Positions 3,152 through 18,860 of a DNA stretch of 33,980 nucleotides are shown one piece after another (position 1 is the first letter of the stretch; every line of letters begins with the position of its first letter). The stretch is from NCBI GenBank assembly GCA_903954045.1, contig CAJBMJ010000204.1, positions 1-33,980 of the forward strand. Direction: 5' to 3'. Under the pieces are notes generated by a model, which saw nothing but the letters and a program-made list of their open reading frames with translations, did no database searches and was not told the DNA's origin. The DNA is from an uncultured beta proteobacterium (GTDB taxonomy: Bacteria > Pseudomonadota > Gammaproteobacteria > Burkholderiales > Burkholderiaceae_C). The position numbers and the translations under genes were made by a program.

Positions 3152-3876
3152 GGCTTGGCTTCAGCCAGCAGTTTCTCGATTTGTTTGGTATCTATGGCGC
3201 CGGGCACCCGGTTGCCGTTGACGAATACCAGCGTAGGCGTTCCGGTGATCTTGTAACCACGGCCCAGTTCGGTGTTGCGCGTCAGCGCGCTGGAATCGCA
3301 CATCGCAGCAGCAGCGGGTGGGGGCTGGTCACGCACCATCCAGTCTTGCCAGGCTTGCGCCTTGTCTTTGGCACACCAGATGGCTCTGGATTTATCGGTT
3401 GAGTCAGGTCCGAGGATGGGGTAGAGGAACATGTAAACCGTGACGTTGTCTATTTTTTGCAAATCGCGCTCAAAGCGCTTGCAGTAACCACAGTTAGGGT
3501 CTTCAAAAACCGCCAGCTTGCGTTGGCCGTTACCACGCACGATAGTAAAAGCGTCTTTGAGCGGCAGGGTGTCAAACTTGATGGCAGTGAGCTTGTCCAC
3601 CCGCTCTTCGGTCAGGTTGCGTCGGCTGCGGGTGTCAATCAGGTTGCCTTGCACCAGATAGTTGCCGGTAGCGTCCGTGTAAAAAATGTCGGTGCCATTC
3701 ACCCGGATCTCAAACAAACCGGGTACGGGTGTTTTGCTCACCTCGTCAATGGCCTTGAGCTGGGGGATCCTGTCGCCAAGATTTTTGCGAATCGCAGCTT
3801 CGTCTGCCAGCGCGCTCCACGAAAAAACGGCCAGTGCGGTAGCCAGTACAGCGCGTGTCAATGAGGTGTGTTGCAT
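3148..3876 (-). CDS. dsbC: thiol:disulfide interchange protein DsbC
   Basis: A 242-residue periplasmic protein-disulfide isomerase. A signal peptide is evident (basic n-region, hydrophobic VLATALAVFSW, cleavage near ALA-DEAA). The N-terminal dimerisation domain is followed by a thioredoxin fold with the redox motif CGYC at residues 129-132 (context FEDPNCGYCKRFERDL) and a cis-Pro segment TGTPTLVFVNG. Length and motif match DsbC/DsbG; CGYC is the DsbC form. It reshuffles wrong disulfides in exported proteins and is normally kept reduced by DsbD, which is not in this window. The gene sits 12 bp after the ubiH-like gene and overlaps the M61 peptidase start by 4 bp, so the three are probably one leftward transcript. 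Confidence 0.93.
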   Translation of the reverse strand: MQHTSLTRAVLATALAVFSWSALADEAAIRKNLGDRIPQLKAIDEVSKTPVPGLFEIRVNGTDIFYTDATGNYLVQGNLIDTRSRRNLTEERVDKLTAIKFDTLPLKDAFTIVRGNGQRKLAVFEDPNCGYCKRFERDLQKIDNVTVYMFLYPILGPDSTDKSRAIWCAKDKAQAWQDWMVRDQPPPAAAAMCDSSALTRNTELGRGYKITGTPTLVFVNGNRVPGAIDTKQIEKLLAEAKP

Positions 3877-7345: not shown

Positions 7346-8275
7346 GTGAGTCATCAATTGGAAGTTCAAAACTTGATATCTGTTTCTCCCCAAGACCTTT
7401 TTGCACTCGGTGCCGCGTTCTGCTGGGCCTTGACCGGCTTTATCTCCAGCGGTCCGTCCAAATATCTGGGTTCCATGGCCTTCACCCGCTGGCGCATGCT
7501 GCTGGTGGCGCTGATGCTATGGCCCATTGTGCTGGTCTTGGGCTCGTGGCAAACGCTGCAAGTTTCCCAACTGGGGGTGCTGGCCTTGAGCGGCTTGATC
7601 GGGATTTTTGTGGGAGATACCGCCTTGTTTGGCGCTCTGAATCGGCTGGGGCCGCGGCGTACCAGTGTTGTTTTTGCCACGCATGCCTTGTTCAGCGCAT
7701 TGCTGGGATCGGTTTTCCTGGGCGAGCGAATCGGCTTGCAGGCCGGATTGGGAGGCATTCTGGTGGTGGGCGGCGTGATGATTGCCGTGATGTTTGGCAA
7801 GCACAAGGATGACGACCACGACTGGGAAACCCTTGGCGGCGCTTGGAAAACTGGCGTGGCCCTGGCCCTGCTGGCTGCGCTTTGCCAGGCAGTGGGCTCC
7901 TTGATTGCCAAGCCGGTCATGGCCCAAGGCGTGGACCCGGTGGCCGCCACCACGGTGCGGGTCACGGCCACTTGTCTGGCCCAGTTCGCCCTGCTTTGGT
8001 CAGGCTTTGCGGCGGCCAAGGCGCAGCAGGCTGCTAATGCGGCGGTGTTGCGTCAGGTGGCGCTCAGCGGTTTCATTGGAATGGGTATTGGCATGAGCAT
8101 GGTGCTCATGGCGCTTAAGCACGGCGATGTGGGCACGGTCGGCATCTTGTCGTCGGTAACACCGGTGTTGGTGCTGCCCGTACTCTGGGTTTTGCTGGGC
8201 CGCGCACCCGCCAGAGGAGCCTGGGCGGGCTCCTTGCTCACCGTGGCTGGAACGGTGATGGTTTTAGCCCGCTAG
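7346..8275 (+). CDS. DMT-superfamily transporter with two EamA domains
   Basis: A 309-residue inner-membrane protein with about ten hydrophobic segments in two EamA-like halves of about 150 residues each, separated by a charged stretch (GKHKDDDHDW). Typical marks are FVGDTALFGALNRLGPRRTSVVFATHALFSALLGSVFLGE in the first half and VGTVGILSSVTPVLVLPVLWVLLG in the second. Such proteins export metabolites or amino acids; the substrate cannot be inferred. The likely start is GTG at 7346. An overlapping ATG at 7344 is followed immediately by TGA, and the ribosome-binding site is weak, so the exact start is uncertain. The last 55 bp of this gene recur at 10880-10934. Confidence 0.88.
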   Translation: MSHQLEVQNLISVSPQDLFALGAAFCWALTGFISSGPSKYLGSMAFTRWRMLLVALMLWPIVLVLGSWQTLQVSQLGVLALSGLIGIFVGDTALFGALNRLGPRRTSVVFATHALFSALLGSVFLGERIGLQAGLGGILVVGGVMIAVMFGKHKDDDHDWETLGGAWKTGVALALLAALCQAVGSLIAKPVMAQGVDPVAATTVRVTATCLAQFALLWSGFAAAKAQQAANAAVLRQVALSGFIGMGIGMSMVLMALKHGDVGTVGILSSVTPVLVLPVLWVLLGRAPARGAWAGSLLTVAGTVMVLAR

Positions 8276-8318
8276 CCCTCGTAAATGCTGCATGAGAAGC
8301 TATCAAAATGAGAGTAAC

Positions 8319-8349
8319 GTCATGCGGCGGAGGTGTTGCGCCGCATGAC
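8319..8349. terminator. hairpin downstream of the EamA gene
   Basis: Perfect 11-bp stem GTCATGCGGCG / CGCCGCATGAC with a 9-nt loop. A version with one internal mismatch exists at the equivalent place in copy B (10981-11006). There is no T-run. It coincides with the remnant of an IPTL-CTERM gene end, so the palindrome also encodes the C-terminal MRR codons. Confidence 0.55.
8320..8349 (-). pseudogene. remnant: last ten codons of an IPTL-CTERM gene
   Basis: Read on the minus strand this is VMRRNTSAA followed by TGA, matching VMRRNPGVA-stop at the end of the intact IPTL-CTERM gene (10979). The rest of the gene body is displaced to 9593-9747 by the ATPase gene. Confidence 0.7.
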
Positions 8350-8362
8350 TATGGCACGAACT

Positions 8363-8392
8363 TTGAGCGAAGCCCAACTGCAGCTGTACACT
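8363..8392 (+). promoter_or_regulatory. candidate sigma-70 promoter of the ATPase gene
   Basis: TTGAGC (8363-8368) and TACACT (8387-8392) are separated by 18 bp, about 40 bp before the ATPase start. A TAAGG ribosome-binding site at 8422-8426 follows. Found by eye only. Confidence 0.4.
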
Positions 8393-8433
8393 TACAATTC
8401 TGCGAACTAAAAGCGAATTTGTAAGGCTTTTTT

Positions 8434-9588
8434 ATGATTCCACGCCTGACCACCCCCCTGCTCGACGAACTGCGTGCAGGCTATCCTGTGATCACCATCA
8501 CAGGGCCACGCCAGTCTGGCAAGACCACCTTGGCGCGCGCCGCTTTCCCCGACAAGCCCTATGTTTCGCTGGAAACGCCCGATGAGCGCGAATTCGCTGC
8601 CACCGACCCGCGCAGTTTTCTGGCGCGCTGGCCCAGCGGGGCCATCATCGACGAAGTGCAGCATGTGCCACAGCTCTTCTCATGGATTCAGACCGATGTG
8701 GATGCCAGTGCGCAGATGGGCCGCTATGTGCTCACAGGTTCGCAAAACTTTGCCTTGATGGCCAATATCACCCAAAGCCTGGCCGGGCGCTCAGCCTTGG
8801 TGCAATTGCTACCCCTGTCAATCGCCGAGTTGTCCGCAGCAGGGCAATTGCCAGCTGATCTGGATGCCATGCTGCTGCGTGGCGGCTACCCGGCGCTCTA
8901 TGCCCGCACGCTGAACCCGGCGCGCTGGCTAGCAGACTACACCATGTCGTACCTTGAACGCGATGTGCGCCAAATCACTCAGGTGCAAGACCTGTCGGCC
9001 TTTCAGCGTTTTTTGCGCCTGTGTGCCGGGCGCACGGGACAACTCCTCAACCTGAGCAATCTGGCACAGGATGCGGGTATCGCCCAGACCACGGCGCGCG
9101 CCTGGATGTCGGTGCTGGAGGCCAGCTACATCGTTTTTTTGCTGCAGCCTCACCATCGCAATCTGGGCAAACGCGTCGTCAAGATGCCCAAACTGTATTT
9201 TTTGGATACAGCTCTGGCTGCTTCGTTGATGGGGATTCAGACCACCACGCAGTTGTCCATTCACCCGCTGCGCGGCGCGCTGTTTGAGACCCTGATCGTG
9301 TCGGAATTTCTGAAGGCACGATTCAACGCGGGGTTTGCCTCCAACCTGTTTTTCTGGCGTGACAACGTGGGATTGGAGGTGGATTTATTGCTGGACGAAC
9401 CCGAAGGCTTGTACCCCATTGAGATCAAATCGTCAGCCACCGTCACCGACGATTTGTTCAAGGGTTTGCGCAAATGGCTGGCCGTTGCAGGTGACGCGGC
9501 AGGCCTGCCACGCCTGGTTTGCGCTGCGCCAACAAGCTACCAGCGCGATGGCATCAACGTGCGCCGATGGCAAGAGACTACCGGCTAA
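8434..9588 (+). CDS. AAA family ATPase with DUF4143 domain
   Basis: A 384-residue intact protein. The N-terminal AAA_14-type ATPase has Walker A GPRQSGKTT (about residues 24-32), Walker B AIIDEVQH and sensor LTGSQN. The C-terminal DUF4143 part ends in FFWRDNVGLEVDLLL...YPIEIKSS, which resembles a PD-(D/E)XK-like core (the D of EVD, then E-x-K). The role of this family is not established. Members are often multicopy single genes scattered in genomes, and a nuclease or toxin-like role has been suggested only by resemblance. Here it lies inside a broken IPTL-CTERM gene (tail at 8320-8349, body at 9593-9747), which indicates insertion as a unit with its own promoter. A TAAGG site 7 bp before the ATG supports the start. 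Confidence 0.92.
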   Translation: MIPRLTTPLLDELRAGYPVITITGPRQSGKTTLARAAFPDKPYVSLETPDEREFAATDPRSFLARWPSGAIIDEVQHVPQLFSWIQTDVDASAQMGRYVLTGSQNFALMANITQSLAGRSALVQLLPLSIAELSAAGQLPADLDAMLLRGGYPALYARTLNPARWLADYTMSYLERDVRQITQVQDLSAFQRFLRLCAGRTGQLLNLSNLAQDAGIAQTTARAWMSVLEASYIVFLLQPHHRNLGKRVVKMPKLYFLDTALAASLMGIQTTTQLSIHPLRGALFETLIVSEFLKARFNAGFASNLFFWRDNVGLEVDLLLDEPEGLYPIEIKSSATVTDDLFKGLRKWLAVAGDAAGLPRLVCAAPTSYQRDGINVRRWQETTG

Positions 9589-9592
9589 GGGT

Positions 9593-9747
9593 TTGAGGCC
9601 GGCCTGAGCGGCCAGCGCGCCAGGGTCGGCAATGTTGCCGCTGACGGAAACGTTGGGCAACGCATACCAATGCGGCGTTTGGCTTCCACCAAATTCTGGC
9701 CCGTATTTGTAGTACTTGGCGTTGGTCGGCACGGCTGTGGGATACCT
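9593..9747 (-). pseudogene. remnant of an IPTL-CTERM / choice-of-anchor U surface protein gene
   Basis: The minus strand encodes YPTAVPTNAKYYKYGPEFGG, then SQTPHWYALPNVSVSGN joined to IADPGALA. This matches the C-terminal anchor region of the intact protein at 10979-14440. Relative to that protein about 21 residues (QISFDITDD...) are missing in frame, and homology stops before the IPTLSEW sorting signal, where the ATPase gene ends. The upstream body of the gene is gone. Several synonymous-type differences show this is a diverged paralogue rather than a fresh copy. Confidence 0.85.
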
Positions 9748-9790: not shown

Positions 9791-9823
9791 GTTCAGGTGA
9801 ATTTCATGTTCAGGTGAATTTCA
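9791..9823. repeat. 16-bp tandem direct repeat upstream of antitoxin promoter
   Basis: GTTCAGGTGAATTTCA occurs at 9791-9806 and again at 9808-9823, a 17-bp period. It directly abuts the antitoxin operator and could be an extra protein-binding site. Confidence 0.75.
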
Positions 9824-9872
9824 GCACTTAAAAAGTTTCGACTAATTGCATATAATCGAAACACTTAAGTGC
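9824..9872 (+). promoter_or_regulatory. antitoxin promoter with nested palindromic operator
   Basis: Nested inverted repeats GCACTTAA...GTTTCGA and TCGAAAC...TTAAGTGC (9824-9831, 9835-9841, 9856-9862, 9865-9872) enclose a consensus -10 TATAAT at 9851-9856. A TTAAAA -35 lies 17 bp upstream (9828-9833). The right arm also contains a perfect 10-bp palindrome CACTTAAGTG (9862-9871). This layout is typical of autorepressed toxin-antitoxin promoters, with the antitoxin as likely repressor; that last step is inference. Confidence 0.8.
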
Positions 9873-9888
9873 CTCAAGGAGATTTACC

Positions 9889-10338
9889 GTGCGCTCTTCC
9901 ACTGCCAGTCCTTCACCTCAAGGCTTTGATCCTGCACTGCGCGGAGTTTGCGAGAAATCGGCCCGCTCGGTCATGTCCGTCTTGCGTCGTGAGGCACCAG
10001 CGGGTACATCACCAGAAATCATGATGGACTTTGCCGCGTCGCTGACAGGTGTCATTGAACGTACGACCGTCATGCTTCTGGCTGGCAAACAGGTTCGGGT
10101 CATTGAAGACGACGAAGCGATCACGACACAGGAGGCCGCAGACTTGCTGAACGTCTCGCGCCCCCACCTGGTCAAACTGCTTGACCGTGGAGAAATCCCG
10201 CCCTTACCCAAGGTGGGCCGTCATCGTCGTGTTGCACGTGCCAGCGTCCTTAAATACAAACGCACCCGTGATGCCCAACGGGAATCTGCCCTCAAGGAAC
10301 TCGCTGCGCTTTCCCAACATCACGGACTTGGCTATTGA
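9889..10338 (+). CDS. antitoxin with excisionase-type helix-turn-helix domain
   Basis: A 149-residue protein, GTG start at 9889, with a strong AAGGAGA ribosome-binding site at 9876-9882. The C-terminal half is an excisionase/MerR-like HTH (TTQEAADLLNVSRPHLVKLLDRGEIPPLPKVGRHRRV), the type found in antitoxins paired with PIN-domain toxins. The N-terminal half is helical and may be the dimer or toxin-contacting part. A PIN-toxin pseudogene begins 2 bp after its stop, the standard antitoxin-toxin arrangement. The reading frame looks intact although the toxin is ruined, so it is either an orphan antitoxin still acting as a regulator or a gene that has not yet decayed. Confidence 0.85.
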   Translation: MRSSTASPSPQGFDPALRGVCEKSARSVMSVLRREAPAGTSPEIMMDFAASLTGVIERTTVMLLAGKQVRVIEDDEAITTQEAADLLNVSRPHLVKLLDRGEIPPLPKVGRHRRVARASVLKYKRTRDAQRESALKELAALSQHHGLGY

Positions 10339-10340
10339 GC

Positions 10341-10776
10341 ATGACTCCGGTAGTCGTGCTGGACGCTTGCGGCCGGGGGTGCAATTCGCGCAGTTGATGA
10401 ACCGGGCAGCGGGAGAGGCCTTGATCAGACGGTATCGCCAGCACGAAGGGCTATTTCCCAAGACCGATGCCAAAGATCGTCATGTTGCTGCGGCTGCTGT
10501 TACAGCACGCAAACAATCGGCGGTGAATGTCGTGACCGTCATCACATGGAACCTCAAAGACTTCAACCGCAAAGAGTTGGCGCAGGCCGGGCTCGCCGTG
10601 GAAAATCCAGACACATTTTTGTGTCGCATGATGACTCTCCAGACAGCGTCGTTTCGGCTTTCGTGCGCATGCGCGACAACCTTCGCAACCCAACCAAGAC
10701 AACGCAGGAATGTGCGGACACCCTTTTTGCGCAGGGATTAAAGACTTTTTCCGGCTTGATAAAAGCAAGCACTTGA
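10341..10776 (+). pseudogene. broken PIN-domain toxin gene
   Basis: The start is intact: ATG at 10341 reads MTPVVVLDAC, the PIN opening with its first metal-binding Asp. After ten codons the frame goes to a stop at about 10397. The rest of the toxin appears in the next frame (ALIRRYRQHEGLFPKTDAKDRHVAAAAV then VTVITWNLKDF...NPDTFLC), including the TDAKDRH and NLKDF acidic motifs. A further frameshift around 10620 moves the C-terminus (HDDSPDSVVSAFVRMRDNLRNP, ending GLKTFSGLIKAST and TGA at 10776) to a third frame. PIN toxins of this class run to about 180-190 residues, so an internal segment of some tens of codons is also missing. A functional ribonuclease toxin cannot be made. Confidence 0.85.
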
Positions 10777-10780
10777 ACCC

Positions 10781-10828
10781 ATGACCACGTACTCGATCCT
10801 CTTTGTTTGCATGGGCGACATCTGCCGC
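10781..10828 (+). pseudogene. N-terminal relic of a low-molecular-weight protein tyrosine phosphatase gene
   Basis: ATG at 10781 reads MTTYSILFVCMGDICR, very close to the usual LMW-PTP opening ending in the catalytic P-loop C-x-GNICRS. Here the loop reads CMGDICRR, and similarity stops at codon 16. After another 14 unrelated codons the frame ends in TAA at about 10873. The next ~50 bp (10829-10879) resemble nothing I know, and copy B of the exporter tail begins at 10880. This is a gene start left by a deletion or recombination event. Confidence 0.7.
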
Positions 10829-10879
10829 AGGACGACCCCGCCGCCTTGCTGGCCGCAATTGGCTTGCGCGTAAGCGCGC

Positions 10880-11008
10880 CTGGGCAGGCTCCCTGCTCAC
10901 CGTAGCCGGAATGGTGATGGTTTTAGCCCGCTAGCGCTTATATAGGCTGCATGAGCAGCTATCAAAAAGAGAGTAAATTCATGCGACGCCTGGGTTACGC
11001 CGCATCAC
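10880..11008. repeat. direct repeat copy B: exporter 3' end plus IPTL-CTERM gene tail
   Basis: Partner of 8221-8349, same length and ungapped. Its first 55 bp encode WAGSLLTVAGMVMVLAR and a stop, a headless EamA C-terminus. The remainder contains the true end of the intact IPTL-CTERM gene. Confidence 0.85.
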
Positions 11009-14000
11009 TAGCAGGGTGCCCAGAGCCAGCAGCGCGGAAAGAAGCATCAACGCCCATTCAGACAGAGTAGGAATGCTGGCCGCATCTAATGGAATGGCCA
11101 GCGCGCCGGGATCGGCAATGACGCCTGGGTCAACTAGGTTGCTGTCACCCAGATGGTCGTCGGTGATGTCAAAACTGATCTGATTGCCGTTGATACTCAC
11201 GTTGGTCAGGGCATACCAGTGTGGGGTCTGGCTGCCACCAAACTCTGGCCCGTATTTGTAGTACTTGGCATTGGCGGGCAGTGTCGCTCCTGGGTAAGTG
11301 ATGGTGAAGCGCAACGTGTTTCCGGTGCCGCAGTTGTTGGTGGTAAAGCTCAACACCCCGTGCGGATAAGAGAACCCGGCCGGAGGCGTTGTAGGCGCTG
11401 ACGAAACTGCGGAGAACGCTGAGCTGGCATAGGCGCAGCCGGCGCTGCCCCCGGTAAACGAAGCTGTGATGTTGCCGCCCGATGGCGAGGTGCCGGTGAT
11501 GCTGGTGACTGGGATACTGACCGTATGCGCAGTACCAGCGGTGTAGCCGCTGGCAATGGCTGTTAACCCGGCCGCTGTCGCCGCAATGCCGGTGCCCGAG
11601 CTTTTGAGGTCCAGTCGCAAAGTGCCTGCGCCCGTGATGGCGCTGACGGGTACTGTCCAGGTCAGACCGCTGTCGCTGGTACTGGGTGTGCCCACCGTGC
11701 CGCTGGCGCTGCCCGTGGCGGTGAGCGTGAAGTCGCTTGCATCCACTCCGCTAACCGCCTCGCTAAAGGTGACCAGAAAACTCATGCTGGTGACACTGGC
11801 AGCGGGTGAGCCCACCGGTGCGCTACCTGAGACCGACGGAGCGCTGGGTGCTACAAAACCAAAACTCACAGGGCAGTCAGCGGTGATGGCCCCGGTGGTA
11901 AAGGTGCCGCTGGTGCTGGTGTTAAGCGTTCCGCTGAAGTTGCCGCTGCATCCGCTGGCCGCACTCACCCGGTTGAAGCCGGTGCCGGTCAACACAAATT
12001 CCTTGGTGGCGTTGTAGGCCACCACTTGCGCAGTGGACGGGCTGACGGTGCCACCACTGGGGCTGTTGGGTGTAACGGTGTAGCCACGCGGCACACTGCA
12101 CGCACCTCCGGTGGTGGTGCTACCCCCGCCTGAGCCCGCACAGTCCCAGGTGAACTGGCTGGCGCTCGATGCAGCATTCGTCACGCTGCCCGCAGTGCAG
12201 GCTGCCATGCCGCTGGGTGCGCTAGTTACGGCAGTGCTGCTGATGGCGCAGGTGCCGTTGATGAGCGGAACATTGACCGTATGCACCGTGCCAGCGGTGT
12301 AGCCGCCAGCAATGGCTGTCAACCCAGCCGCTGTGGCAGCAATGCCAGTGCCCGAGTTATTGAGGTCCAGGCGCAAAGTGCCAGCGCCCGTGATGGCGCT
12401 GACGGGTACTGTCCAGGTCAGACCGCTGTCGCTGGTACTGGGTGTGCCCACCGTGCCGCTGGCGCTGCCCGTGGCGGTAAGCGTGAAGTCGGCGGCATCC
12501 ACACCACTGACCGCTTCGCTAAAGGTCACCAGAAAACTCATGCTGGTGGCACTGGCAGCGGGTGTGCCCACCGGGGCGCTACCCGAGACCGACGGAGTGC
12601 TGGGTGCTACAAAATCAAAACTTACAGGGCAGTCTGCTGTGATGGCTCCGGTGGTAAACGTGCCACTGGTGCTGGTGTTAAGTGTCCCGCTGAAGTTGCC
12701 GCTGCAACCACTGGCGGCACTCACCCGGTTAAAGCCGGTGCCGGTCAACACAAATTCCTTGGTTGCGTTGTAGGCCACCACTTGCGCAGTGGACGGGCTG
12801 ACGGTGCCACCACTGGGGCTGTTGGGCGTGACGGTGTAGCCATGCGGCACACTGCACGCACCTCCGGTGGTGGTGCTACCCCCGCCTGAGCCTGCGCAGT
12901 CCCAGGTGAACTGGCTGGCGCTGGATGCGGCGTTGGTCACGCTGCCTGCGGTGCAGGCGGCCACGCCGCTGGGTGCGCTGGTTACGGCGGAGCTGATGAT
13001 GGCGCAGGTGCCGTTCACGGGGACGGCCGAAACTGCCGCTGTTGCCGCTGAGCAGACTTCGGTACCGGGTGAGGTTCCAGTGCTGGCCTTGGGCGTTACG
13101 CAATAGAACAGATACTGGCCAAGGTCACCCGCAACCACGGTATAGGTTTGGTTGCTGCCACCGGTGCTGCCCGTGGCAATGTCGGTGTTGTCGCCAGTGG
13201 TGGCTGCGCTGTTGTCTGTTGAGCGCACGAAACGATAGGTTGAAATGCCTTCCGCGTCGGTTTCGCTGTCGCCGTAGGTGTAGCTGCCCGTCAGTTGCAC
13301 ACCTACCTGGGCTGTTCCGACGATCGTTACTGCGCTGGCGGAGGGCGCGACGTTGGTGCTCGGTTCGGCCGCCGCCTGCACATTGCCTAAAAAGTCACCC
13401 CAGATCATGAAAAGCATAGTTCCTGGGTCGGCGGGGATGGTTTTAGTGACCAGGTTGGTGGCAACATCAATCACATGGGTAGTACCGTTGTCCATCACGG
13501 CATACAGGGCAGCATCATTGGCCGAGATACCCAAACCGCCGATTGATGTAGCACCCGACACAATCAAGTTGATCTCGGTTTGCGTGGCCGTGTTGGTGGC
13601 GTCAATGATATGCAGCTTGCCCCCACCGTCGCCGACATAGACTTTACTGCCGTTCTTGCGCACAGCCACTGTGCCTGCACGGTTGCCGCCAATGTTGTTT
13701 ACAGTGATTGTTGCAACCGAGTTATCGGACAGGTCAATCTTCTTGAAGCCACTATCGGTCATGCTTGCCACGTATATCTTTTCGTTGCCTGTCGGATCGT
13801 AGGCAAGGCTGTACGCAGGGTCGAGTCCGGTCGCGGCGACAAGAGTGATTGCATTGCTGATGGTGTTGAAACTTTTGACCTCACCGGTGTCACAGAGGAA
13901 GTACAGCAGCGATCCGTCGGCTTTCATCGCCGAGCTGATGGGGAAACAAGTATCACCGGTAGGGTAGGATGTTACGAACCTGGTTGCGGCGTTGACCACA

Positions 14001-14440
14001 TGTAGCTTATGCCCAACGTAATCAGACACATAGGCGGTAGCGCCATCGGTTGAGAATGTGATCGCAGCGGAATCCCCCGTGCCCGCTATCGGTGTCTTCA
14101 AGGTATTGTTGGTGGTGTCAATCACGCCCAGCATGTTGTTGTTGCCAGATACTTGTCCAAACCAGACCTCGTTGCTTGAACCGGGCCGCACAGTGGCGGT
14201 GTATATAGCCCCGTTTAAGGCGGGGTTAAGGGTAACCGGCACGATGGTGCCGGTAAGTACGCCTGTGGCGGTATTGATCACCGACAGCGTTAAGCTACTT
14301 GAGTTAGGAATATAGGCAAAGTCAGCCGCAAGCAACTTTGCTGAAGAAAACAAAGAGGCCGCGGTAGCCATGGTTACTACCAAGATGCGCATACTTGGCT
14401 TTTGAATGCTCAGGAATGAGCGAAGGTGTTTTGAATTCAT
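10979..14440 (-). CDS. IPTL-CTERM-anchored surface protein with beta-propeller and tandem repeats
   Basis: A 1153-residue secreted protein, start ATG at 14440 (MNSKHLRSF). The longer track start has no support, and a signal sequence (MRILVVTMATAASLFSSAKLLAA) follows soon after this ATG. Order of parts: signal peptide; about 330 residues of YVTN-like beta-propeller (AYIPNSSSLTLSVINTATG, LYFLCDTG, KVYVGDGGGKLHIID); an Ig-like segment (GVQLTGSYTYGDSETDAEG); two near-identical 252-residue units; a choice-of-anchor U-like domain (NAKYYKYGPEFGGSQTPHWYAL); and the C-terminal sorting signal IPTLSEWALMLLSALLALGTLLVMRR. The PTL motif, membrane helix and basic tail mark a substrate of an exosortase-like transpeptidase (XrtH class), which is not in this window. 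A role at the cell surface or in the extracellular matrix is inferred. Confidence 0.9.
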   Translation of the reverse strand: MNSKHLRSFLSIQKPSMRILVVTMATAASLFSSAKLLAADFAYIPNSSSLTLSVINTATGVLTGTIVPVTLNPALNGAIYTATVRPGSSNEVWFGQVSGNNNMLGVIDTTNNTLKTPIAGTGDSAAITFSTDGATAYVSDYVGHKLHVVNAATRFVTSYPTGDTCFPISSAMKADGSLLYFLCDTGEVKSFNTISNAITLVAATGLDPAYSLAYDPTGNEKIYVASMTDSGFKKIDLSDNSVATITVNNIGGNRAGTVAVRKNGSKVYVGDGGGKLHIIDATNTATQTEINLIVSGATSIGGLGISANDAALYAVMDNGTTHVIDVATNLVTKTIPADPGTMLFMIWGDFLGNVQAAAEPSTNVAPSASAVTIVGTAQVGVQLTGSYTYGDSETDAEGISTYRFVRSTDNSAATTGDNTDIATGSTGGSNQTYTVVAGDLGQYLFYCVTPKASTGTSPGTEVCSAATAAVSAVPVNGTCAIISSAVTSAPSGVAACTAGSVTNAASSASQFTWDCAGSGGGSTTTGGACSVPHGYTVTPNSPSGGTVSPSTAQVVAYNATKEFVLTGTGFNRVSAASGCSGNFSGTLNTSTSGTFTTGAITADCPVSFDFVAPSTPSVSGSAPVGTPAASATSMSFLVTFSEAVSGVDAADFTLTATGSASGTVGTPSTSDSGLTWTVPVSAITGAGTLRLDLNNSGTGIAATAAGLTAIAGGYTAGTVHTVNVPLINGTCAISSTAVTSAPSGMAACTAGSVTNAASSASQFTWDCAGSGGGSTTTGGACSVPRGYTVTPNSPSGGTVSPSTAQVVAYNATKEFVLTGTGFNRVSAASGCSGNFSGTLNTSTSGTFTTGAITADCPVSFGFVAPSAPSVSGSAPVGSPAASVTSMSFLVTFSEAVSGVDASDFTLTATGSASGTVGTPSTSDSGLTWTVPVSAITGAGTLRLDLKSSGTGIAATAAGLTAIASGYTAGTAHTVSIPVTSITGTSPSGGNITASFTGGSAGCAYASSAFSAVSSAPTTPPAGFSYPHGVLSFTTNNCGTGNTLRFTITYPGATLPANAKYYKYGPEFGGSQTPHWYALTNVSINGNQISFDITDDHLGDSNLVDPGVIADPGALAIPLDAASIPTLSEWALMLLSALLALGTLLVMRRNPGVA
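11504..13015 (-). repeat. two tandem 756-bp coding repeats inside the IPTL-CTERM gene
   Basis: The units 12260-13015 and 11504-12259 are nearly identical, each 252 codons running from NGTCAI to the HTV-x-x-P segment. Each unit joins a Cys-containing stretch (FTWDCAGSGGGSTTTGGACSVP), a bacterial-Ig-like stretch (GYTVTPNSPSGGTVSPS) and a SwmB-like stretch (FLVTFSEAVSGVD, DFTLTATGSASGTVG). The high DNA identity points to recent duplication or ongoing homogenisation, and copy number may vary between strains. Confidence 0.9.
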
Positions 14441-14642
14441 GTGCAAGTTCTCGCGTGGCCGTTGGTGGTAGCGGGTGAAGGTCTTGGGATAGTAGAAATA
14501 AGCAGCCATCCGATGTCTTATGAATCGCTGCAAAACCTAACCAAAGCTCACCAATCCTTGCAAGGCAGGCACAAACACCCCGTTTGCTTGATGCAGCACA
14601 AACCCTGCTGCCCTATAGTTGCTGGCATTCGATTGCATCCCC
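14441..14642. other. divergent intergenic region (IPTL-CTERM gene / response regulator)
   Basis: About 200 bp with no gene. It contains a 6-bp hairpin GCAGCA/TGCTGC (14593-14611) and a candidate -10 TATAGT at 14614-14619 facing the response regulator. No good -35 was found. No ribosome-binding site is obvious before either start. Confidence 0.4.
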
Positions 14643-15341
14643 ATGCCCCGCACTGCCCCGCACCTTGTATTTGTGATTGACGACGACGCGCGCCTGCGCG
14701 ACGACCTGGTGGACTACCTGCTGAGTGAGGGTTACGAGGCCATGGGATTTGCCAGCTACGAGCAGTTTTTGCCGGTGTCGCACCGTTTGCAGCCGGACCT
14801 GATCCTGCTGGACCTGGGCTTGCCCGGGCTTGATGGCATGGACGTTTGCCCGCTGCTGCGCCAGCGCTGGCCCCAGGTCGGGCTGGTTATGCTGACCAGC
14901 CGTAGCGGTGTGGAGCAGCAGCAGGCCGGGCTGCAAGCGGGGGCCGATGCCTATTTGTCCAAAACAGCCACGCTGGCCCTGGTGGAAGCCACGGTATCCA
15001 GTGTGTTGCGCCGCTTGCAACCGGCACCGCCAGCGTCACCGCTTGCAGCGTGGCCCATCAACGAAGCCCTGTTGCAGCTCAGTACACCGCAGGGCCAGGC
15101 CACGGTGCTTACTTTCAACGAGTTCCGTCTGGTGCAGGCGGTGTTGCAGGCACAGGGCCAGTCTGTGCCGCGCGAGACCTTGCTAGCCCTGACCGGAAAG
15201 CCCGACAACCCGACCAACCGGCGCAACCTGGACGCCGTCATCAGCCGAATTCGCGCCAAGGTGCGTGCCAGCACCGGGGCCGACCTGCCGCTGCGGGCCA
15301 GCTATGCCAACGGTTACGCGTTTACGACTGACCCAGCTTGA
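14643..15341 (+). CDS. OmpR-type two-component response regulator
   Basis: A 232-residue regulator. The receiver domain has the acidic pocket VIDDD, phospho-acceptor D57 (LILLDLGLPGLDG), conserved Thr (VMLTSRS) and Lys (LSKTAT). The C-terminal winged helix (LTFNEFRLVQAVLQAQGQSVPRETLL ... DAVISRIRAKVR ... LRASYANGYAF) is of the OmpR/PhoB type. I chose ATG 14643 over the track's TTG at 14619, since the receiver begins right after it; no ribosome-binding site decides the matter. Its partner is almost certainly the convergent 7TMR-DISM kinase, whose 3' end overlaps this gene by 20 bp. Target genes are unknown. Confidence 0.9.
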   Translation: MPRTAPHLVFVIDDDARLRDDLVDYLLSEGYEAMGFASYEQFLPVSHRLQPDLILLDLGLPGLDGMDVCPLLRQRWPQVGLVMLTSRSGVEQQQAGLQAGADAYLSKTATLALVEATVSSVLRRLQPAPPASPLAAWPINEALLQLSTPQGQATVLTFNEFRLVQAVLQAQGQSVPRETLLALTGKPDNPTNRRNLDAVISRIRAKVRASTGADLPLRASYANGYAFTTDPA

Positions 15342-17202
15342 GTACCCAGCAAACGCCCTGGGTTTGACCGGGGCTGGCACTGAAGCTGCCACCATGTGCC
15401 CGCGCTATATGCGCTACCAGTGACAGGCCCAGACCAAACCCCGGCTTGTCCTGATTAGGCTTGCGCAACTGCACGGTTTGTCCAATTTGGGCGTATTGCT
15501 CAGGCTCGAGCCCCGGTCCTTGGTCTTCTACCGTGAATTCTGCGTGACCGTTGCGGTCGACCGCCAGCCGAATCTGCACCGGTTTGTCTGCCCCGGCATA
15601 TTTGAGTGCGTTGATGACAATGTTTTCCAGGGCCAGTTTGGCCAGCAAGGGATCAAAGCTGGTGGTGACAGGGGCGGCGTCTGGGGGCATCGTCCAAACC
15701 AGTGTGGCGTGGGCGTAGTTCAGTGTCAATTCGGCCTGTACGTTCTTGGCCCAGGTGTTGAGCTGCACGCGTTCAGGCTTGACGACCACTTGCCCGGATT
15801 CCAGAGACGCGCTGTTGAGGAATGCTTCCACCAGCTTTCCGGTCTCGAAAGCCCAGAGGCGAATGTCGGTCACGCGTTTGCCTGCGCGCTCCGCCAGGCT
15901 GGAATCGCGCAGCAACATCTCGGCAGAGCGGCCAATGCGCGCCAGTGGCCCTAGCAACTCGTGCGCCACAAAGGCAGAAAACGACTGAATCTGGTCGCGC
16001 TGGGTGGTGAGCAGGCGTTGCTGAAACAGGCCTTCACGGTGCGCAGTTTCAAGCACGCGGATGGACCGGTTGGTGGCAATACCCAAAATCAATACGTGTA
16101 CCAGCGACGACATATCAAACGCCGCAGCAAACCACGGCTGCGCCGGGATGACCCCGGCCACGCTGAGGTTGTTGGCAATGGCGGTGGCCGTGCTGAGGAA
16201 AAAAGCCAAAACAAATAGGCCAATGGAGACACGACGCTCAGGGCGGCGCATGGCCCACAGGGCCAACACCAGATTGACAATGCTGATTACCAGAATACCT
16301 AGCACGGCGGTTTGTGCTGCCTGCCGGTAATACGGGGTGTTGACGCTGAGCATGCTCAGCAGGCAATAGGCAATGATGCCCAGATAGGCTTTGAAAAGCC
16401 GGGGTGAGTTGCTGCGCAGTTGCAAAATGATGATCCACAGCAGGCAGGACACAGCCGGTGCCAGCAAGATGCCAAAGCCGGTGACCCAATTGGCCAAAGC
16501 CGCAGAGCCCAGCCAGGCATTGAACAAAATGGGCTGATTGACTCCGACAAAAATAGCCAGAAGGCACAGCAGGTAGGCGCTGTAACCGAGTTGCACTGCT
16601 TGCCGCATCACGATGGCACCCACGGCGTACATGATGGCTGTGAGCAAATAAAGCGTGATGAATATGCCAGCCTTGAAAGGGTTGCTCGACTGACCTATGA
16701 GCAACTCTTCGTCCGTCAGTAACTGGGCCCGCACATTGAGCGCGCTGGTGGTTTGCACGCGCAGCAGGTAGCTGGTTTCTTCCGCCAGCGCGGGTAGTCG
16801 CACCACGTGGCTGGCGTAGGACAACGGGGGAGGCTCCGACAGAATGGTGTCACCCATGCTGACCCAGGGGGTCGTTTGGCCCCAGGAATAAATGTCAATG
16901 CGGTCAAGATAAGGGTAGCCCACGGAAAGGAGCCACCCCTTTGCACCAGCGGGTACGGCGGGAACTTTGAACCGCGCCCAGAGTACGCCGGGGCTGTAGC
17001 CATAAAAACCTTGCCTGGCGTCTTGCGACCAGTTTTGCGGCTCGGTGAAAATTTGTTCGGCCTGCAATTGTTCGCTGCGGTCCAGCAAGACGGACCATTG
17101 CATATTGAGATTGGTGGCCCAGGCCATTGGCAGCGCACACCACAAAGCCAATCCCAGCAAAGCCGAGCGGAGCCAGGCGGTGAGCTGAATATTTACCACC
17201 AT
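15322..17202 (-). CDS. 7TMR-DISM sensor histidine kinase
   Basis: A 626-residue membrane kinase. From the start chosen (ATG 17202, MVVNIQLTAWL): signal peptide ending MAWA, a periplasmic DISMED2-type carbohydrate-binding-like domain (WSVLLDRSEQL ... LLSVGYPYLDRIDIYSW), seven hydrophobic helices typical of 7TMR-DISM receptors, then a kinase core. The phospho-accepting H414 lies in VAHELLGPLARIG, with N-box ENIVINALKYAG, G1 VEDQGPGL and G2 GFGLGLSLVAHIARAHGG, so it should be active. The start overlaps the end of the YqaA-like gene by 10 bp, suggesting translational coupling; its end overlaps the response regulator. The ligand is unknown, though extracellular sugars are a family-based guess. Confidence 0.92.
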   Translation of the reverse strand: MVVNIQLTAWLRSALLGLALWCALPMAWATNLNMQWSVLLDRSEQLQAEQIFTEPQNWSQDARQGFYGYSPGVLWARFKVPAVPAGAKGWLLSVGYPYLDRIDIYSWGQTTPWVSMGDTILSEPPPLSYASHVVRLPALAEETSYLLRVQTTSALNVRAQLLTDEELLIGQSSNPFKAGIFITLYLLTAIMYAVGAIVMRQAVQLGYSAYLLCLLAIFVGVNQPILFNAWLGSAALANWVTGFGILLAPAVSCLLWIIILQLRSNSPRLFKAYLGIIAYCLLSMLSVNTPYYRQAAQTAVLGILVISIVNLVLALWAMRRPERRVSIGLFVLAFFLSTATAIANNLSVAGVIPAQPWFAAAFDMSSLVHVLILGIATNRSIRVLETAHREGLFQQRLLTTQRDQIQSFSAFVAHELLGPLARIGRSAEMLLRDSSLAERAGKRVTDIRLWAFETGKLVEAFLNSASLESGQVVVKPERVQLNTWAKNVQAELTLNYAHATLVWTMPPDAAPVTTSFDPLLAKLALENIVINALKYAGADKPVQIRLAVDRNGHAEFTVEDQGPGLEPEQYAQIGQTVQLRKPNQDKPGFGLGLSLVAHIARAHGGSFSASPGQTQGVCWVLKLGQS

Positions 17203-17666
17203 TGCACCAGCCCGGTCAGCGCCGCCGTCATCACCAGGTAGCGAAAAAACTTTCCGATGGCCATGTACATCACGCAGGGCCAAAAAGGCAGTTGCAACCA
17301 ACCCGCCACTGCGCAAAGTGGGTCACCCACGACCGGCAGCCACGACAACAGGCAGGCTTTGGGGCCCAGGCTTTTCAGCCAGTCCAGAACTCTGAGGTGC
17401 GTGTGGGAGTGCTTGTATTTGTCGGCGACCTTGTGTGCGCCGTAGCCCAGCCACCAGTCCAGCGCTCCACCCAGCGTGTTGCCAGCCGTGGCTACCAGAA
17501 TAGCGGGCCAGAAAAGCTCCGGGTTGAGCTGGACCAGCCCAAATACTGCGGGCTCCGAGCCCAGCGGAAGCAGGGTTGCTGAAATAAATGAAATCAGAAA
17601 CACCGTACTCAAGCCGAACTGCGGCAGAGCCAGCAGGGTGAGAAGATGGTCGATCCAGAGGGGCAT
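17193..17666 (-). CDS. YqaA/DedA-family small membrane protein
   Basis: A 157-residue inner-membrane protein of the YqaA branch of the DedA/SNARE-associated (VTT) family. It has several hydrophobic segments, a conserved FISATLLPLGSEP near the N-terminus, ATAGNTLGGALDWWLGY in the middle and SWLPVVGDPLCAVAGWLQLPFWPCVMYMAIGKFFRY, which matches the family's G-D-P and G-K-x-x-R-Y pattern. The start ATG 17666 (MPLWIDHLL) removes an unlikely 18-residue extension. DedA-like proteins are linked to lipid-carrier flipping and envelope integrity. Overlap with the sensor kinase start suggests co-expression, perhaps as part of an envelope-sensing unit. Confidence 0.88.
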   Translation of the reverse strand: MPLWIDHLLTLLALPQFGLSTVFLISFISATLLPLGSEPAVFGLVQLNPELFWPAILVATAGNTLGGALDWWLGYGAHKVADKYKHSHTHLRVLDWLKSLGPKACLLSWLPVVGDPLCAVAGWLQLPFWPCVMYMAIGKFFRYLVMTAALTGLVQWW

Positions 17667-17807
17667 GGGGGCAGTGTAGTGGCTGCAGCAAACACCAAGA
17701 ACGCTGGAAGTAAGCTGCATTTCAATTGCTGAAATTTTGAGCAGGTAGAATTAGTTTCGGCACTCGCCCTCGCACCTTCCACCCCCGTTTCTATTTCCAC
17801 TACGCAT
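17667..17807. other. divergent intergenic region upstream of dusB-fis
   Basis: 141 bp expected to carry the dusB-fis promoter. TAGAAT (near 17745) is a possible -10, but no convincing -35 is seen at the right distance. Confidence 0.35.
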
Positions 17808-18860
17808 ATGCACATTGGCCCGTTCGCTTTGGCGAATCCCCTGTTGGTGGCACCTATGGCCGGTGTCACGGACAGGCCCTTTCGCCAGTTGTGCAAACGT
17901 CTGGGGGCAGCCTATGCCGTCAGCGAGATGGTGACATCCCGGCCAGACCTGCTGAAGACGCTCAAAACCTCTCGCCGTGCCAACCACGATGGCGAACCGG
18001 GGCCCATTGCGGTGCAGATAGCTGGTACCGATGCGGCCATGATGGCCCACGCCGCGCGTTACAACATAGACCGGGGCGCGCAGATTATTGATATCAATAT
18101 GGGCTGCCCAGCCAAGAAGGTGTGCAACAAGTGGGCCGGTTCGGCGCTAATGCAGGACGAGGCGCTGGCGCTGGAGATAGTTCAGGCAGTGGTGAATGCC
18201 TGTGAACCCCACAAGGTGCCGGTCACCCTAAAAATGCGCACCGGCTGGTGCCAGAGCCATAAAAACGCACTGTCCATTGCCCGCGCCGCCGAAGCGGCCG
18301 GAGTGCAGATGATTTCGGTGCACGGTCGCACCCGCGAGCAGGGCTACAAAGGCGCGGCCGAGTACGACACCATTGCAGAAGTCAAGGCAGCGCTGCGCAT
18401 ACCGGTGGTAGCCAATGGCGATATCGATACGCCCGAAAAAGCCAGAGAAGTGTTGCGCCTCACCGGCGCCGACGCCCTGATGATTGGGCGTGCAGCCCAG
18501 GGCCGCCCCTGGATATTCCGTGAAATAGCCCATTTTTTGGCTACCGGCACCCATCTGGCGCCACCGCTGGTCAGTGAGGTCAAACGCCTGCTGGTGGAGC
18601 ATCTGCACGATCACTACCAGTTGTATGGTGATTTCATTGGCGTGCGTTCGGCCCGCAAGCACATCGGCTGGTATGTGCGGTCTTTGCCTGGGGGCGAGCA
18701 ATTTCGCTCGGAGATGAACGCGCTGGAAGATTGTGAGGCCCAGGTGGCCGCAGTCGAGCGGTATATGGACCAGATCAATCAGAACATGGACCGCATCCCC
18801 GTCTACGGTGGGGACAAGGTTGATAAAGAGGAACAAGATATGAGGGAAATAGCAGTATGA
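17808..18860 (+). CDS. dusB: tRNA-dihydrouridine synthase DusB
   Basis: A 350-residue FMN-dependent enzyme that reduces uridine to dihydrouridine in tRNA. Landmarks are the opening LLVAPMAGVTDRPFRQL, the FMN-barrel segment INMGCPAKKVC with the catalytic Cys at 106 followed by NKWAGSALM, the phosphate-binding HGRTREQGYKG, and VVANGDIDTPEKA ... DALMIGRAAQGRPWIF. The tail (about residues 320-350) is polar and variable. The ATG of fis lies within the dusB stop (ATGA), the classical dusB-fis operon of proteobacteria, which supports DusB over the DusA or DusC types. Confidence 0.95.
   Translation: MHIGPFALANPLLVAPMAGVTDRPFRQLCKRLGAAYAVSEMVTSRPDLLKTLKTSRRANHDGEPGPIAVQIAGTDAAMMAHAARYNIDRGAQIIDINMGCPAKKVCNKWAGSALMQDEALALEIVQAVVNACEPHKVPVTLKMRTGWCQSHKNALSIARAAEAAGVQMISVHGRTREQGYKGAAEYDTIAEVKAALRIPVVANGDIDTPEKAREVLRLTGADALMIGRAAQGRPWIFREIAHFLATGTHLAPPLVSEVKRLLVEHLHDHYQLYGDFIGVRSARKHIGWYVRSLPGGEQFRSEMNALEDCEAQVAAVERYMDQINQNMDRIPVYGGDKVDKEEQDMREIAV

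Follow-up and report, generated by a model that had tools for sequence, protein, structure and literature searches.

Relationship to described systems

The closest described relative of the gene studied here is PDC-S01, a phage-defence candidate of PADLOC that combines AAA_14 and DUF4143 domains and that is reported to be widespread, to have been transferred across domains and to rank fourth in frequency among the defence candidates of prokaryotes (PMC12988326). The same source states that the antiviral activity of most such candidates (PDCs) awaits experimental validation. The AAA_14-DUF4143 ATPase encoded in the window (the whole stretch of 33 980 nt that was analysed, which is a single contig, C204, of the 4.4 Mb assembly G000, itself fragmented into 605 contigs) corresponds to PDC-S01, being a single gene whose product is covered by the profile over residues 1–355, and is a member of this known candidate defence family. 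Unlike PDC-S01 as presented in the available part of PMC12988326, where neither a gene-borne operator nor flanks with displaced gene ends were found, the window ATPase has a proposed operator of its own and displaced gene ends nearby. Almost nothing was found on DUF4143 by name in the library that was searched, where the name appears in one paper, and the operator, its genome-wide specificity and the displaced-end signature appear to be undescribed in this searchable literature, outside which lie most subscription journals and preprints.

The nearest parallel for the surroundings of the gene is found in T6SS immunity arrays, for which homology-facilitated illegitimate recombination has been proposed (PMC5361080). 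As in those arrays, a new module stands beside a conserved gene with displaced 3′ ends downstream, but the cargo in the window is a stand-alone ATPase and the event is reconstructed from its remains. A single gene with its own proposed switch, often lying amid broken ends of its neighbours, suggests how stand-alone candidate defence genes pass between bacteria.

The ATPase gene and its predicted product

The ATPase gene (8434–9588, + strand) is an intact ORF, as the initial annotation had it, and encodes a protein of 384 aa with AAA_14 (E=8e-25) and DUF4143 (E=3e-49) domains, both of which exceed the curated Pfam cut-offs. The best PADLOC match is the PDC-S01 profile PDLC04790 (E=1.2e-102 over the residues given above). 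A phmmer search of solved structures gave no match for the ATPase. An AlphaFold model of the whole chain has a mean pLDDT of 91.6, and the best PDB match in a whole-model fold search is the archaeal STAND-type ATPase 2QEN (E=4e-07), the closest fold for the complete model but with 16 % identity and a TM of about 0.5. A separate model of residues 183–384 (pLDDT 91.7) matches McrC and Can2, whose PD-(D/E)XK fold corresponds to the C-terminal domain of the ATPase with E-values of about 5e-4 to 8e-4 but a TM of just about 0.4, and, more weakly, the winged helices of the ArsR-type repressors SmtB and CzrA (TMt about 0.55–0.59, E about 0.01–0.04).

The ArsR-like winged helix occupies residues ~187–256 and the PD-(D/E)XK core residues 280–335, the latter with E285, E315, D317, E330 and K332. 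Together with the Walker residues G29, K30, D73 and E74 these nuclease residues are essentially invariant in 98 sequences, and the PD-(D/E)XK signature (an acidic residue, D and E-x-K on the core fold) is present as E285, D317, E330 and K332 in 98 of 98. The protein is predicted to be a STAND-like ATPase with an ArsR-like winged helix and a PD-(D/E)XK nuclease, and differs from McrC and Can2 in joining ATPase, DNA-binding domain and nuclease in one chain. A hyphenated dyad near the promoter is a feature in common with ArsR-type repressors; unlike SmtB and CzrA, however, the winged helix is fused to an ATPase and a nuclease, and metal sensing is not implied. The protein probably cuts DNA, and from its fold and conserved residues we propose that it may act as an ATP-dependent nuclease with invading or damaged DNA as its target.

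Limits and distribution of the proposed mobile unit

A contig scan for ATPase homologues gave 80 loci, the close named ones of which are Rhodoferax MAGs. In homologues with 84–93 % protein identity, the DNA that matches the window mostly begins at 8391 (~43 bp ahead of the ATG) and stops where the ORF ends; the closest relatives, L080 and L081 (93 % protein identity), have only window positions 8391–9591 and 8391–9576 in common with it. Of the 305 homologue pairs that have ≥70 % DNA identity and flanks of >200 bp at both ends, 268 have at most 70 bp in common outside the ORF on either side. Members of a Gallionellaceae/Nitrosomonadales group (~90 % identity) have mostly unrelated flanks, with homology ending at about −66 to −110 at the 5′ side and near the stop codon at the 3′ side. 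A conserved 3′ terminus was not seen, nothing past the stop codon being common beyond close groups; neither was an attC-like site found 3′ of the ATPase, where flanks are unrelated between loci, which argues against an integron cassette. The presence of the gene is patchy, with 63 of 103 genus genomes containing a match (E≤0.001, a count that includes distant family members). These limits, and in particular the 268 pairs and the comparisons with L080–L089, support the earlier suggestion that the ATPase behaves as single-gene cargo, DNA homology between species being confined to a 33 bp dyad and the ORF (8391–9588); as to the moving itself, no sign of transposition of its own was found.

A scan of viral contigs found no close ATPase relative; phage records contain ten distant relatives, and 377 plasmid records contain relatives, all with <60 % identity. 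One of the plasmids is a Wolbachia plasmid of Aedes albopictus (NZ_CP101659.1), in which the ATPase is at 49 % identity. At L080 (Rhodoferax bin_44) a second ATPase 3′-end fragment (3700–3819) lies upstream of the intact ATPase. A candidate for an interrupted ATPase, on contig G029:C85, was dropped, this contig appearing to be chimeric or repetitive.

Remains of neighbouring genes in the window

The ATPase gene lies within ~9 kb bordered on the left by an EamA transporter gene (7346–8275, + strand; Pfam EamA, E=9e-37 on 7370–8272), around which gene order is kept in relatives of the genus, and on the right by a VTT-domain gene (17193–17720, − strand; Pfam VTT) and DusB (17808–18860, + strand; TIGR00737), which are conserved beside this slot in the relatives. 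Between these borders are gene shards, the ATPase, a toxin–antitoxin-like module, a copy of the EamA tail, an intact IPTL-CTERM gene and a 7TMR-DISM sensor histidine kinase (15322–17316, − strand).

That the ATPase is flanked by two shards of an IPTL-CTERM gene, as the initial annotation reported, is confirmed by minus-strand translation and self-BLAST. The first shard (VMRRNTSAA-stop) is at 8320–8351 and the second, the anchor part (YPTAVPTNAKYYKYGPEFGGSQTPHWYALPNVSVSGNIADPGALA), at ~9610–9747, both on the − strand. By self-BLAST, 8219–8351 matches 10878–11010 (84 %, E=2e-35) and 9650–9731 matches 11199–11280 (85 %, E=3e-20), and both shard matches are well above chance. The first of these pairs is a duplicated stretch (+ strand), of which copy A (8219–8351) comprises the EamA 3′ end, a dispersed repeat and the final IPTL codons, and copy B (10878–11010) a displaced EamA tail, the dispersed repeat and the IPTL 3′ end; the repeat (~8261–8317 in copy A) is dispersed across the genus. 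The intact IPTL-CTERM gene (10979–14533, − strand, 1184 aa; TIGR04174, choice_anch_U, PF18203) is a homologue of the broken copy, lies 1.1 kb from it, has the diverged duplicate of the EamA tail (10878–10934) in front, and had been overlooked.

Relative to this gene, the broken copy is without ~85 bp (11011–11095 of the intact copy, IPTLSEW included), the place of which is occupied by the ATPase, and its anchor shard has lost a further 63 bp in frame; ~170 bp is left of a 3.5 kb gene. The ATPase had been placed exactly between the shards: these do flank the ORF, but only approximately, with filler at 8352–8390 and 9589–9609 that has no match in the IPTL gene or at other ATPase loci. Nor is the picture of one IPTL gene cleanly interrupted by the ATPase supported, the host being a diverged duplicate shard with an intact IPTL gene next door. 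The broken copy also abuts the toxin–antitoxin-like module (9812–10779, + strand), which consists of an excisionase-type HTH protein gene (9889–10338; HTH_17, TIGR01764) and a second gene that is broken; compared with the paralogue L304 of the same genome (89–90 %), the module has a deletion near 10372–10383. The second gene is presumed to encode a PIN protein, for which there was no match. Ahead of the first gene (9812–9888) is an inverted repeat, GTTTCGA...TCGAAAC. An unoccupied allele, in which the IPTL gene would be whole and the ATPase missing from this site, was not found in other genomes, and for this reason we infer the order of events.

We consider it moderately probable that the ATPase gene belongs to a horizontally acquired unit with its own operator, that it encodes an autorepressed putative defence nuclease and that it was imported by one-sided homology. 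Positions 8391–9588 would then be a self-contained unit of one gene and its own operator-promoter. The winged helix of a dimer would bind the promoter-overlapping 33 bp dyad and repress its own gene, and release, or the sensing of invading DNA, would free the ATPase-nuclease for defence. Apparently not transposing by itself, the unit would most likely enter on DNA from related strains, the incoming DNA pairing with a conserved neighbour gene on one side and joining illegitimately at the other, so that displaced, diverged ends of the conserved neighbour would be left behind. In the window, a piece with an EamA tail, an IPTL end, the ATPase and perhaps the toxin–antitoxin module may have entered by recombination within EamA, pushing the resident EamA tail and IPTL gene aside; the EamA tail copy, the IPTL shards, the broken toxin–antitoxin module and the intact IPTL gene would be what such turnover of the slot left behind.

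In an alternative history, an old tandem copy of the IPTL gene had already degenerated when the ATPase entered it by plain illegitimate insertion, and the EamA tail would be an ordinary tandem duplication unrelated to import. The two EamA tails of the window are identical at 51 of 57 bases and are nearer to each other than to those of relatives (~58–74 %), and the same IPTL end is present on both copies; since the tails are closest to each other, tandem duplication plus plain insertion is a live rival, but it leaves unexplained why displaced gene ends are in excess around ATPase genes, as described below, and we regard it as rather unlikely.

The intact IPTL-CTERM gene contains an internal tandem duplication of 780 bp (11481–12259 and 12242–13015, 91 %). 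There are 38 IPTL-CTERM motif matches above the cut-off in the 4.4 Mb of G000, and as several of these are within short frames, shards of IPTL genes are common in this genome. An IPTL motif and a DUF4143 ATPase are found together on its contigs C168, C174 and C552.

Flanking repeats and displaced gene ends

When the upstream and downstream 500 bp of the 91 ATPase genes with flanks were compared (threshold ≥30 bits), direct repeats were found around 18, whereas the expectation from mismatched flanks is 0.24 and, of 320 neighbouring ORFs at the same loci, 4 have such repeats. With the threshold raised to ≥50 bits, 14 of 91 ATPase genes and 2 of 320 neighbouring ORFs remain (Fisher P=2e-8), although these control ORFs are mixed neighbours rather than matched accessory genes, so that the excess may hold for all cargo genes. 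Four of five ATPase copies have no flanking repeat above the threshold. The repeats are 20–227 bp long and 75–97 % identical, with variable filler between repeat and unit. At two loci, G077 and L102, they are clearly the ends of neighbour genes: the G077 repeat is a displaced creC 3′ end, and that of L102 is a gene start, the gene in question also occurring close to the ATPase at seven further loci of the same group. A diverged end-copy of a conserved neighbour beside the cargo is present both in the window (10878–11010) and at G077 (creC).

A displaced creC end is also found in G080, which has no ATPase there; of the two copies in G080, the right one clusters with G069 and the left one with G068. 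The creC tree, with one starred branch, does not separate the origins of the two G077 copies. The slot that follows creC and extends to a VIT-type gene (L239, L269–L273) is occupied by a small cargo gene that differs between all six genus genomes read, and is likely to be a cargo hotspot. Because the repeats are 75–97 % identical, range from 20 to 227 bp and are displaced gene ends at two loci, target-site duplication accounts for them less well than does import by one-sided homology resembling illegitimate recombination. Their interpretation as long target-site duplications was dropped, none being identical, their length being variable and the copies not being clearly sisters. The displaced-gene-end signature offers a testable route for stand-alone defence genes into chromosomes without transposases.

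These repeats also bear on whether the gene could be an active single-gene transposon or homing element, mobilized by its own nuclease and winged helix and producing long target-site duplications. Such an element would account for a 5′ edge fixed at the dyad, an end near the stop codon, the direct repeats at 18 of 91 copies and the position of the repeats of L066 and L102 near the unit on both sides. The lengths of the repeats vary, however, and all are below 98 % identity; repeat and operator can be as much as 137 bp apart, with other DNA between them, the L102 left copy is closer to that of L130 than to its own right copy, and creC is duplicated in G080 without the ATPase. Fixed-length identical target duplications, as expected of a transposon or IS, are not seen among the repeats, and of conserved termini at both ends there is one, the 5′ edge at the dyad. 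We hold such an element to be improbable. The shared boundaries or target duplications for which the initial annotation had proposed to look are found in part: there are boundaries at the operator and near the stop codon, whereas the repeats, diverged and of variable length, are unlike the products of transposition.

A gene starting MATLIPSLGAARFD, or its start, lies ~5 kb or less from the ATPase at L102, L112, L116, L119, L122, L130, L136 and L137. Presumably it resembles NERD-helicase genes, and it is possibly a defence partner or an island mate of the ATPase.

The dyad ahead of the start codon

The 5′ edge of the unit is formed by a 35 bp dyad, CTTACAATTCTGCGAACTAAAAGCGAATTTGTAAG (8391–8425, + strand; core of 33 bp at 8392–8424), which is the proposed operator. 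Almost all close homologues, in genera as far apart as Rhodoferax and Pedobacter, have a dyad directly before the start codon, and start-proximal dyads are present in homologues of Betaproteobacteria, Desulfobacterota, Melainabacteria and Bacteroidota. The best dyad score from −80 to +5 in 97 genes has a mean of 12.1 out of 16, whereas two control stretches give 8.7 and 8.3, and shuffled sequences 8.3 (P ~1e-25); dyad centres were picked for maximal symmetry, which favours the score, and these controls followed the same rule. The arms also covary, with 12.65 of 16 pairs matched in 77 distinct operators against 9.27 when shuffled (maximum 9.77 of 500), a control to which the rule for picking centres was not applied. 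Examples of covarying arm pairs are TTACAA/TTGTAA, TATGCAA/TTGCATA and TGGACAA/TTGTCCA.

The pattern TTACAA-N21-TTGTAA occurs three times in the 4.4 Mb of G000 (C168:4999, C174:3714 and C204:8392), all three sites being 2–9 bp ahead of a DUF4143 ATPase, and a control pattern does not occur. In 103 genus genomes there are 14 pattern sites against six for the control; eight of the 14 are at ATPases and a ninth (L232) is at a decayed ATPase gene with a surviving operator, syntenic to the intact L079. At least seven of the 15 other genomes reached via the loci have exactly one pattern site, which reads as the operator of their ATPase locus. The dyad is thus conserved at the promoter and specific to the DUF4143 ATPase gene, specific enough to lead to ATPase genes, including one or more that have decayed. 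Its specificity and the covariation of its arms support the proposed autorepression by the winged helix at this candidate operator. The presence of a gene-borne operator before nearly all close homologues provides a direct handle on regulation and predicts that the winged helix binds DNA.

Three genus loci, L233, L234 and L235, have pattern-matching dyads without an adjacent close ATPase, that of L233 being ~150 bp ahead of another AAA ATPase and that of L235 having a distant DUF4143 homologue ~900 bp off; these and the remaining genus sites are due to chance or without explanation. Orphan dyads were considered as empty target sites, an idea that was abandoned when L232 turned out to be a decayed ATPase beside its operator.

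A T run follows the dyad in the window, and the 56 nt RNA folds at −9.6 kcal/mol, as would suit a leader RNA hairpin or terminator rather than a DNA operator. The z-score of the fold is just −1.6, however, with 14 of 200 shuffles folding equally well, and the structure is not significant. Furthermore, many Desulfobacterota homologues have TTGACA, resembling a −35 box, inside the dyad and a −10-like box near the ATG, so that the transcript would have little or no leader and the dyad would serve as a DNA operator that is not itself transcribed. A role of the dyad in RNA seems to us doubtful. We give still less credence to a scheme in which the ATPase-nuclease drives its own spread as a transposase-free homing gene, by recognizing the operator, cutting near gene ends and having repair copy gene and operator with long duplications.

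The variable slot between EamA and VTT/DusB

In seven genus relatives (L041–L047) EamA is followed by the VTT gene and/or DusB ~0.6–1.1 kb on, with one unrelated gene in between: an ORF of ~204 aa in three of the seven and of 350–380 aa in four. The longer ORF we take, from its sequence, to be MnmH/SelU. The EamA-to-VTT/DusB site is a variable slot, and the IPTL gene, the ATPase and the histidine kinase are all absent from it in these seven relatives, which further weakens the claim of a clean insertion into an IPTL gene. That the ATPase and the IPTL shards form a conserved functional arrangement can be dismissed, since nothing was found in its support and it is contradicted both by the flanks of close homologues, which have no DNA in common with the IPTL shards, and by the orthologous slot of the seven relatives.

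Between the toxin–antitoxin-like module and copy B of the duplicated stretch, positions 10780–10877 contain a fragment that reads MTTYSILFVCMGDICRR, which we presume to resemble the start of a low-molecular-weight protein tyrosine phosphatase.
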